A stretch of DNA of 64,000 nucleotides from Dehalococcoidia bacterium (GTDB lineage Bacteria > Chloroflexota > Dehalococcoidia > Tepidiformales > Tepidiformaceae): NCBI GenBank assembly GCA_022826585.1, contig JAJDUR010000106.1, forward strand, positions 29,000-92,999. Reading direction: 5' to 3'. Positions 1,755-63,763 of the stretch are shown piece after piece. Made by a program: the position numbers and the translations under genes. A model generated the notes under the pieces. It did no database searches and was not told where the DNA came from. It saw only the letters and a list, made by a program, of their open reading frames with translations. Positions within the stretch are counted from its first letter, which is position 1; the number at the start of each line of letters is the position of its first letter.

Positions 1755-1760
1755 AGTGTA
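1755..1760 (-). promoter_or_regulatory. -10 element of nadB (TACACT)
   Basis: Leftward TACACT, then 6 bases, then the GTG start of nadB. This spacing places the transcription start at the start codon (leaderless). Confidence 0.7.
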
Positions 1761-1770
1761 CGTCGTACAC
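1756..1770. promoter_or_regulatory. Perfect inverted repeat overlapping the nadB -10 (candidate operator)
   Basis: GTGTACG-T-CGTACAC is a 7+1+7 perfect inverted repeat that covers five of the six -10 bases of the leaderless nadB promoter. A repressor bound here would block nadB-nadC transcription. An NrtR-like protein is encoded at 54249-54854, but linking the two is inference only. Confidence 0.5.
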
Positions 1771-1827
1771 GAAGTCCCCGCGATGCGCTCCCGCCGCCGC
1801 CTGAGTCGCCCGAATCGTGCCCCGCCG

Positions 1828-1833
1828 TACAAT
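1828..1833 (+). promoter_or_regulatory. -10 element of def (TACAAT)
   Basis: TACAAT followed by 7 bases and GTG 1841. It overlaps the in-frame ATG at 1832, which argues that translation starts at 1841. Confidence 0.65.
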
Positions 1834-1840
1834 GCAAACC

Positions 1841-2353
1841 GTGGCGATCCATCCCATCCGGCGCGCCGGCGACCCTGTCCTGCGGCAAAAGGCCAGGCGC
1901 GTCCGCGTCCGCGACTCGAGCCTCCCCGAGCTCATCGAAGACATGTTCGAGACGATGTACGACGCCCCCGGCGTCGGCCTCGCCGCCCCCCAGATCGGCA
2001 TCCCCTTGCAGGTCATCGTGCTCGACACGCCCCCCGCCGAGCCGTTCGCCCTCTTCAACCCGCAGATCATCAAGCGCTCCGGCGAGCGCCAGCTCAACGA
2101 GGGCTGCCTCTCCGTCCCCGGCTTTCGCGGCGAGATCACCCGCTCGGTGAAGGTGCTCGTGAAGGGCATCGATCCCGCCACCGGGAGGGAGGTCCGCATC
2201 CGCGCCGAGAACGACCTCCTCGCCGAGGCCCTCGAGCACGAGATCGACCACCTCAACGGCATCCTCTACATCGACTACCTTGACAGCCCCGAGGCGCTCG
2301 TCCGCATCGACGCCGCGCCGGAAGAAGGCGAGAGCGAGGAGGACAAGGCGTGA
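1841..2353 (+). CDS. def: Peptide deformylase
   Basis: Removes the formyl group from the N-terminal methionine of new proteins; a metal-dependent cytosolic hydrolase. All three family motifs are present when counted from GTG 1841: GVGLAAPQIG (residues about 44-53), EGCLSVPG with metal ligand Cys89, and HEIDH (His133, Glu134, His137). Length is 170 residues, normal for type I/II deformylases with a short acidic tail. The track start (GTG 1817) and ATG 1832 precede or overlap the -10 hexamer TACAAT (1828-1833), so GTG 1841, leaderless, is preferred. The stop overlaps the next gene (TGATG), giving a def-SLOG-eno operon. Confidence 0.95.
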   Translation: MAIHPIRRAGDPVLRQKARRVRVRDSSLPELIEDMFETMYDAPGVGLAAPQIGIPLQVIVLDTPPAEPFALFNPQIIKRSGERQLNEGCLSVPGFRGEITRSVKVLVKGIDPATGREVRIRAENDLLAEALEHEIDHLNGILYIDYLDSPEALVRIDAAPEEGESEEDKA

Positions 2354-61480: not shown

Positions 61481-61702
61481 TTACTCGCCGTAGCGCTCGA
61501 TGTGCTCGGCGGCCGCCTTCTCGGCCCACTCCAGAAGTTCAGGCGTGGCTGGCTGCTTGAGCGCCTTGATTTCTTCCAGCGTCATCCCGAAGAGACGCTC
61601 GACGCCGTCGGGGCCGACTTCTACCGGAAAGTCCTCGATGTTCTTGGCGCTCAGCGCCAGTTCTTCAAGGCGCTTCCTGTCCAGCTTTTCGTTTGTGGTC
61701 AT
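61481..61702 (-). CDS. Antitoxin-like small acidic protein
   Basis: 73 residues from ATG 61702 with GGGGAAGG upstream; the track's TTG 61714 is that ribosome site. NEKLDRKRLEELALSAKNIEDFPVEVGPDGVERLFGMTLEEIKALKQPATPELLEWAEKAAAEHIERYGE is short, acidic and helical, like VapB/RelB-type antitoxin tails, with a possible TATGGT -10 near 61723. Pairs with the toxin-like ORF just downstream. Family assignment is weak. Confidence 0.55.
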   Translation of the reverse strand: MTTNEKLDRKRLEELALSAKNIEDFPVEVGPDGVERLFGMTLEEIKALKQPATPELLEWAEKAAAEHIERYGE

Positions 61703-61772
61703 TGCCTTCCCCAACTACTGGAACCATACCTCGTAAGAGTAGGCCCCCGCAAGAGAGCCCCCGTCCTGGCCC

Positions 61773-62534
61773 TTAGGCCGGCTGTGGTTGGGGCAGACGC
61801 TCGACCGCGCTCAGCGGGTCCTTGTCCGGGTGGATGAGGTAGCGCAGCCGCGGCAGCGTCATGTCGACCGTGGTGAGCGAGGCCGAGATGGGGTGCGCGG
61901 CGCTCGCGCCGGGAAGGTTCCACGCCTCGGCCTCGAAGGCGGTGAGCCTCGCGCGGCCACGCTGCGCCCGGTCGAACGTGTAGTCGGGATCGACCTGGAG
62001 GAGCAGCGTCTCCTCGCCGTCCCGCGCGACGCGGGCGAGGGCCAGCGTCGCCATGTACTGCACGTCCGCGCCGGTGATCGGCTGCGGATCGACCAGCTCC
62101 CCGGCGAGGATGGTGGAGCCGTCGAGGGTCACGCTCGTCGTGGCGCGGGCGTAGCTCGGGTCGAGCTGCACGTCTGCGACGTCCAGGGGGAGACCCCAGC
62201 GCTCGCGAAGGACGCTCGTGGCGGCTGCCGAGTCGCAGTAACCCTTCACCAGCAACCCTCGCGGGCGTGCCCCCGCGCGGCACCCGACCCGCACGGTCGC
62301 GAACGTAAACGCACCTACCTCGCTGTCGGGCACGTGCGTCACGTTGACGAGCAGCGTCGGGGGGATGCTGGGGTGCAGGGCGGGAGGCAGCAGGGCTTCG
62401 CGGTCGCCCCCGAGCTCGTAGTGGAGCTGCAGGTGCTGCGCCCCCTTCAGCTCCCACTCCTCGGTGTCGAGGCTGGTGAGGAGCGGGGCGGTGTCGGCCA
62501 AGGTGGAGAGGTCGCGCGTTCCCGTCAGTGGCAT
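61773..62534 (-). CDS. Acetoacetate decarboxylase-like protein
   Basis: 253 residues from ATG 62534, which overlaps the LLM gene stop (TGATG). WELKGAQHLQLHYELGGDREALLPPALHPSIPPTLLVNVTHV and VGCRAGARPRGLLVKGYCDSAAATSVLRERWGLP, then DPSYARATTSVTLDGSTILAGEL, follow the ADC superfamily outline. The catalytic Lys of true acetoacetate decarboxylases is expected in the ExLG-xREx-x-G-x-PKK region; here WGLPLDVADV lacks it. It may therefore be a lyase, hydrolase or binding variant. Probably co-transcribed with the LLM oxidoreductase. Confidence 0.75.
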   Translation of the reverse strand: MPLTGTRDLSTLADTAPLLTSLDTEEWELKGAQHLQLHYELGGDREALLPPALHPSIPPTLLVNVTHVPDSEVGAFTFATVRVGCRAGARPRGLLVKGYCDSAAATSVLRERWGLPLDVADVQLDPSYARATTSVTLDGSTILAGELVDPQPITGADVQYMATLALARVARDGEETLLLQVDPDYTFDRAQRGRARLTAFEAEAWNLPGASAAHPISASLTTVDMTLPRLRYLIHPDKDPLSAVERLPQPQPA

Positions 62535-63652
62535 CAGGCGCCGCCCGCCGCCGTCGCCCCCGCGGGCTCGGCCGCCTCGTCCCCCTGGAACCGGGGCATC
62601 ACTTCCTTCGCGAACAGGCGCATGGAGGCGAGTACGTCCTCCTGTGGGACCATCTCGTGGACGTTCAGCAGGAAGTTGATGCGGTCCACGCCCGCCTCCT
62701 CCCAGCGCCGCACGGCCTGCGCCACGCGATGCGGGTCGCCGATCGTGAGACCCTCGGGCACGCGGCCCTCGGGTCCGCTCTGCGACTCCTGCCGCAGCTG
62801 GTAGAGCAGCCCCGGCGAGAGGTACGAAGGCGTTGGGTAAGCCTGCCGCGTCGCCAGCGTCTGCTCGGAGAGGTAGTTGAAGGTGCCCGCCATGCGTTGG
62901 CCCGTCTTGATCCCCTTCTCGTCGTCCTCGTGGCAGTAGAGGAAGCTGACCGTGTTCACCTGCTCGTTCACGAATTCGCCCACCGGGTCGCACGACTGGA
63001 TGCGCTTGCGGTAGCCGGCGATCTTCTGTGCCTGCTCGCCCACGCCCCCGAACGAAAGCCCGAGGCTGCCGAGCCCGCGCTCGGCCGCGTCGATCTCCGT
63101 GCCCACGCTCGTGACCGCCACCCACATCGGCGGGTGCGGCTTCTGGTACGGCTTCGGGAGGACGCTGCGCTCCGGCATCGAGAACGCCCGTCCCTGCCAG
63201 CTGAAGCGGTCCTGCGTCCACATCTTCGGGATGACGCGCACGTACTCGTCCCACGTCTTCTTCGTCTCGTCCGGGTTCGCCCCGAAGCCGCCGAGTTCGG
63301 TCCACGTCGCCGAACGCCCAGTGCCGAACTCCAACCGCCCGCCCGACACCAGGTCGAGCACCGCGCCACGCTCGGCCGCGCGGATGGGGCTGTTCAGCTC
63401 GGGAACGCAGGTCACGATGCCGTGTCCTACCCGGATCTGCTTCGTCTGCATCGCGATCGCCGTCAGGAAGATCTCCGGGGCCGAGCAGTGCGAGTACTCC
63501 TCCAGGAAGTGGTGCTCCACCGCCCACGCCTGGTCGAACCCCAGCTCGTCTGCGAGCCGCGCCTGCTCCAGGCAGTTCTGGTAGACCGTGTACTCCGTCT
63601 CCGGGCCCCACGGACGCGGCACCGATATCTCGAAGAAGACCCCGAACTTCAT
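62534..63652 (-). CDS. LLM-class flavin or F420-dependent oxidoreductase
   Basis: 372 residues from ATG 63652 behind AGGAG. Bacterial luciferase-like TIM barrel: MKFGVFFEISVP, LADELGFDQAWAVEHHF, IRVGHGIVTCVPELNSPIRAAERGAVLDLVSGGRLEFGTGRSATWTELGGFG and PHPPMWVAVTS, all typical of the LLM family. FMN or F420 cannot be told apart by eye, though F420 use is frequent in this type of organism. Substrate unknown. The decarboxylase-like gene downstream overlaps it by one base, suggesting a shared pathway. Confidence 0.9.
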   Translation of the reverse strand: MKFGVFFEISVPRPWGPETEYTVYQNCLEQARLADELGFDQAWAVEHHFLEEYSHCSAPEIFLTAIAMQTKQIRVGHGIVTCVPELNSPIRAAERGAVLDLVSGGRLEFGTGRSATWTELGGFGANPDETKKTWDEYVRVIPKMWTQDRFSWQGRAFSMPERSVLPKPYQKPHPPMWVAVTSVGTEIDAAERGLGSLGLSFGGVGEQAQKIAGYRKRIQSCDPVGEFVNEQVNTVSFLYCHEDDEKGIKTGQRMAGTFNYLSEQTLATRQAYPTPSYLSPGLLYQLRQESQSGPEGRVPEGLTIGDPHRVAQAVRRWEEAGVDRINFLLNVHEMVPQEDVLASMRLFAKEVMPRFQGDEAAEPAGATAAGGA

Positions 63653-63757
63653 GCTGCTGCTCCTCTCGCGAACCGGGTGGCCGCGAGTCAACGGCAATCG
63701 TGGACACTTTCGGCGTTCTTGTCGAACCGGCGCCGGGTCCACGATGCGCGAAGCGGC

Positions 63758-63763
63758 TATCCT
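63758..63763 (+). promoter_or_regulatory. -10 element (TATCCT) of the HAD gene
   Basis: TATCCT, 8 bases, ATG 63772. Leaderless-type spacing. Confidence 0.5.

Follow-up and report, generated by a model that had tools for sequence, protein, structure and literature searches.

Putative −10 hexamers set against start codons suggest frequent leaderless expression in an uncultured Dehalococcoidia bacterium

Along a 64-kb stretch of DNA with a GC content of 69.5% (the window, by which we mean the whole stretch analysed), hexamers of the TANNNT type lie a few bases before the start codons of about 17 genes, and an earlier note took them for promoters of leaderless mRNAs. The host, an uncultured member of the Dehalococcoidia (Chloroflexota; roughly 69% GC) known from a metagenome-assembled genome (MAG), stands outside the Actinobacteria and Deinococcus that the note mentions. 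Its LepA shares 94% identity with that of 'Dehalococcoidia bacterium isolate p16x63bins.9', and the four hits ranking after this one likewise come from Dehalococcoidia MAGs. The draft comprises 2.74 Mb in 127 contigs with contamination of about 5%, and a search of it for 16S rRNA found none. Genome-wide statistics cover 1.72 of the 2.74 Mb, a sample in which a gene caller relying on coding potential only, and blind to upstream motifs, identified 1601 genes.

We estimate the probability that the hexamers are RpoD −10 elements, and that transcription begins at the start codon to yield leaderless mRNAs, at about 0.92. An ordinary sigma-70 (RpoD) promoter would have its −10 element set such that the +1 coincides with the start codon or falls within about three bases of it, and the resulting mRNA, devoid of a leader or Shine-Dalgarno site, would be initiated at its 5'-terminal AUG or GUG. 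This mode would serve roughly 15–21% of genes genome-wide, mainly those that are first in their operons, with a Shine-Dalgarno mode running alongside for about half of genes. Favoring this reading are a sharp edge in the spacing profile, specificity for TANNNT, restriction to AUG and GUG starts, concentration at operon-first genes, traces of −35 and extended −10 elements, the lack of any excess of Shine-Dalgarno-preceded starts downstream, and conservation in relatives.

The hexamers of the window

All 17 hexamers were recovered at their claimed distances before plausible start codons. Fifteen are TANNNT sequences 6–8 bases from an ATG or GTG, while the remaining two, before priA and argH, are doubtful and should be dropped from the set. 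The candidate −10 elements are as follows.

1755–1760, reverse strand: nadB, TACACT, 6 bases before GTG (1748)
1828–1833, forward strand: def, TACAAT, 7 bases before GTG (1841)
5051–5056, forward strand: lipoprotein-like gene, TACGAT, 7 bases before ATG (5064)
14204–14209, forward strand: VanY-type gene, TATCCT, 7 bases before ATG (14217)
24346–24351, reverse strand: priA, TAGGAT, 5 bases before GTG (24340), doubtful
25551–25556, reverse strand: SDR gene, TAGGGT, 7 bases before ATG (25543)
29673–29678, reverse strand: DR2241-type gene, first in an operon that includes hemL, TAGAAT, 6 bases before GTG (29666)
31739–31744, reverse strand: SCO1664-family gene, TACGCT, 7 bases before ATG (31731)
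32669–32674, reverse strand: phzF, TACGCT, 6 bases before ATG (32662), TA step common to the cinA hexamer
32673–32678, forward strand: cinA, TAGCAT, 6 bases before ATG (32685)
43096–43101, reverse strand: mazG, TAGACT, 6 bases before ATG (43089), kept in L002
43158–43163, forward strand: argH, GACAAT, 7 bases before ATG (43171), doubtful
45588–45593, forward strand: lepA, TACACT, 6 bases before GTG (45600)
50684–50689, reverse strand: galU, TACCAT, 6 bases before ATG (50677)
54861–54866, reverse strand: NrtR-like gene, TACACT, 6 bases before ATG (54854), kept in L240
57754–57759, reverse strand: P450 gene, TACAAT, 8 bases before ATG (57745), TAGACT-N7-ATG in L276
63758–63763, forward strand: HAD-type gene cut by the contig end, TATCCT, 8 bases before ATG (63772), TATCCT-N8-ATG kept in L240

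Most of the gene names proposed earlier are backed by Pfam or NCBIfam (nadB, def, VanY, priA, SDR, the SCO1664 family, phzF, cinA, mazG, argH, lepA, a nucleotidyl transferase for galU, NrtR, P450, and a DR2241-type gene followed by hemL), although Pfam gave no match for the gene at 5064 or for the truncated HAD gene. The priA hexamer is doubtful because its spacing of 5 lies below a sharp genome-wide limit of 6, with no enrichment there. The argH hexamer is doubtful because GACAAT lacks the first T, because GANNNT variants (like CANNNT variants) proved hardly enriched genome-wide, and because AAGGAGG-type sites precede the orthologs of L003 and L005; GACAAT does persist in L002, the nearest relative. 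TANNNT is a weak motif, so single sites lacking ortholog support, such as those of the 5064 and SDR genes, could be chance matches, of which one to two are expected per window.

The divergent start codons of phzF and cinA are 22 bp apart (32663–32684), with their two hexamers overlapping at one TA step, and we predict that this intergenic region acts as a minimal two-way leaderless promoter. Bidirectional leaderless promoters with a shared TA step were rejected as a general class, having yielded 4 raw matches in the 1.72-Mb sample.

Spacing and motif specificity against chance

TANNNT fixes three bases only and the choice of start is free, so that accidental matches combined with a reader's choice among in-frame starts might generate such a list, as the priA and argH examples illustrate. 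We therefore counted TANNNT placed 6–8 bases before an ATG or GTG near the coding boundary and found it at 13 of the 65 called genes of the window, compared with a mean of 1.43 (sd 1.13, maximum 7) in 2000 dinucleotide shuffles; bins of equal width at other spacings held 0–4 genes. The count of 13 is conservative because the haem-operon and HAD genes are absent from the called set. Extending the score to the 1.72-Mb sample, as the earlier note had advised, gave 218 of 1547 genes against 26.4 ± 4.7 after dinucleotide shuffling, a signal far above chance. Among 1007 genes not tightly packed behind a same-strand neighbor, counts at spacings 0 to 10 were 4, 5, 3, 4, 2, 7, 92, 57, 26, 24 and 18. 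Hexamers thus occur at background level from 0 to 5 and jump at 6, rather than being equally frequent at random distances, the outcome that was to have spoken against promoters. An edge at 6 is expected of leaderless promoters because the +1 falls about 7 bases past the −10 element and cannot fall inside the coding sequence. With the excess confined to spacings of 6–10, the spacing profile and the shuffles refute chance for the set as a whole, and we regard it as vanishingly unlikely.

An EM mixture model with free start choice and three classes assigned 21% of genes to a leaderless, 54% to a Shine-Dalgarno and 25% to a neither class; the leaderless fraction may be somewhat high, as shuffled data still receive expected weight. 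The number of confident leaderless genes was 265 (17%), versus 31–36 after shuffling. The −10 matrix reads T(.80) A(.96) [CG] [AG] [AC] T(.96), that is, TASRMT, and spacings of 6, 7, 8, 9 and 10 account for 43%, 26%, 11%, 10% and 6.5% of the class, respectively. Membership follows gene context, with 36% of divergent genes falling into the leaderless class as opposed to 12% of close same-strand (in-operon) genes. Start codons are ATG and GTG, the signal being flat at TTG, CTG and other codons (about 1 TTG start observed versus about 9 expected). At the 9–10 base shoulder there are 33 ATG and 3 GTG starts, and at spacings 6–8 there are 170 and 55; the shoulder possibly represents very short leaders of 2–4 bases.

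The −35 boxes had been called poor, and poor they are, but they are not absent and appear real in a minority: TTGnnn lies at N17 or N18 in 21 of the 265 confident sites (1.3 expected per position). A TGn extended −10 precedes the hexamer in 27 of the 265. With weak TTG −35 boxes and TGn at the right distances, and with a gene for an RpoD-type sigma factor in the genome, the hexamers look like sigma-70-type promoters.

A further possibility is that the T/A hexamer acts in translation, on leadered mRNAs, as either an unstructured stretch or an S1-binding site, with no promoter involved; A/T-rich patches upstream of non-Shine-Dalgarno starts have been so read in other bacteria (PMC5397173). Such an element would not account for a signal in which TA...A, AT...T, TT...T and AA...T are all flat in the genome sample, from which it follows that TA...T, and not A/T richness, is what is enriched. 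The traces of −35 and extended −10 elements keep register with the hexamer, and operon-first genes are favored, both of which also argue against a translational role. We consider this explanation extremely unlikely.

Start codons and conservation in relatives

If the hexamers were promoters of leadered mRNAs, the true starts would lie downstream behind ordinary short Shine-Dalgarno leaders, and the multiple in-frame starts available in many of the open reading frames would give room for this. However, the share of genes with an in-frame, Shine-Dalgarno-preceded start in the 90 bases downstream is 9.8% in the leaderless class and 9.8% in the Shine-Dalgarno class, which gives no hint of concealed leadered starts. 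The avoidance of TTG tells against downstream starts as well, as does the joint conservation, in lepA, galU and def, of the hexamer and the adjacent start codon; we judge such starts very unlikely. Of the 265 confident leaderless starts, only 161 coincide with the longest-ORF start and 211 with the coding-score start; judged against these two kinds of start, it is plausible that the signal moves many annotated starts, as had been claimed.

Orthologs of lepA, galU, def and nadB retain the hexamer along with its spacing and the start codon. For lepA, TACACT-N6-GTG is found in L002–L006 (LepA 76–94% identical), while L007 and L008, both Chloroflexi at a greater distance, have TAACCT-N7-GTG. Orthologs of galU carry TACCAT, TACGAT or TAGGAT at N6-ATG down to 50% identity, and GGAG-type leaders in L007, L008 and L204. 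The def hexamer is kept in 8 other same-genus genomes (all of those examined), and def genes of other genera of the family are without it and have mostly GGAG-type leaders. Each of the 9 same-genus genomes has the nadB hexamer (TACACT-N6/7), as do the family members G009, G010, G013 and G014. In the window this hexamer lies inside a near-perfect palindrome of ~29 bp, GGACTTCGTGTACGACGTACACTAAGTCC (1749–1785, reverse strand), which abuts the start codon, is conserved across the genus and retains its core in several other genera. Conservation of the hexamer at nadB could therefore be due in part to this operator-like palindrome. A gene for an NrtR-type NAD regulator is located at 54249–54854, and the palindrome may be the operator of this regulator; known NrtR motifs vary among lineages (PMC6800001).

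Occurrence across lineages and comparison with known systems

The spike at 6–8 bases was seen in all five partly sampled relatives, of which two belong to the genus and three to other genera within the family, at 8–14 of about 45–52 genes each. Over 24 family genomes TACACT-N6-ATG occurs at 408 sites, versus 34 for TACACT-N4-ATG and 40 for the reversed pattern. Sixteen other Dehalococcoidia families gave 118 N6 versus 86 N4 sites, an excess carried by G024 (12 versus 1) and G039 (26 versus 3) and level at 80 versus 82 once these two are removed; these family counts follow one hexamer only, so that weak usage elsewhere could go unnoticed, and the background is higher in genomes of low GC content. 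In the marine relative L004/L221 (G016 contig C25), whose lepA region has about 43% GC, lepA retains TACACT-N6-GTG and the genome-wide TACACT-N6-ATG excess is lost (7 versus 6 for N4). The spike was moderate at pooled high-GC Chloroflexota loci (13 of 94), and the profile of Firmicutes loci was flat. We think it somewhat probable that large-scale leaderless expression is a trait of particular lineages within the Dehalococcoidia, strong in this family and in two others sampled (G024 and G039) but close to background in most of the rest, and that def, galU and argH switch between leaderless and Shine-Dalgarno modes among relatives. Genes that switch would offer a direct route to studying moves between two initiation mechanisms and, if the switching is true, a natural experiment on the gain and loss of initiation mode. 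Start-site annotation of these uncultured genomes should model the −10-to-start signal besides Shine-Dalgarno sites.

What we describe would be a new occurrence, in a Chloroflexota family, of a known type of promoter and initiation. Mycobacteria use 5'-terminal AUG and GUG starts at a large minority of genes; their leaderless transcripts have been mapped experimentally, whereas those of the Dehalococcoidia are predicted here. In Deinococcus-Thermus, −10 regions adjoining open reading frames have been shown experimentally to function as promoters (Zhong et al. 2025, PMC12340547), and in Deinococcus radiodurans TANNNT stands 6–7 bases from the open reading frame at nearly one-third of genes, TACACT being commonest (PMC12340547). 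Our candidates resemble these in having TANNNT against the start, mostly at 6–7 bases, with TACACT as the most frequent hexamer and a GGAG ribosome-binding-site class alongside (PMC12340547); they differ in belonging to another phylum, in covering about one-fifth of genes as opposed to nearly one-third, and in being predicted promoters. The anatomy of our candidates also agrees with that of the TA-led leaderless genes which Zheng et al. (2011, PMC3160421) described in high-GC genomes, where TAnnnT lies some 10 bp ahead of the start; in Actinobacteria such genes amount to about 20% of the total. We found no paper in the openly licensed literature describing leaderless transcription at such a level in Chloroflexota or Dehalococcoidia. 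For the Chloroflexi, the survey of Zheng et al. reported leaderless genes in 4 of 12 genomes, at 4.0–5.7% (about 4.7%) of genes and of the TAtaaT form (PMC3160421), compared with about 21% and TASRMT here. High-frequency leaderless expression would now extend to a family of the Chloroflexota, a phylum in which that survey reports little of it.
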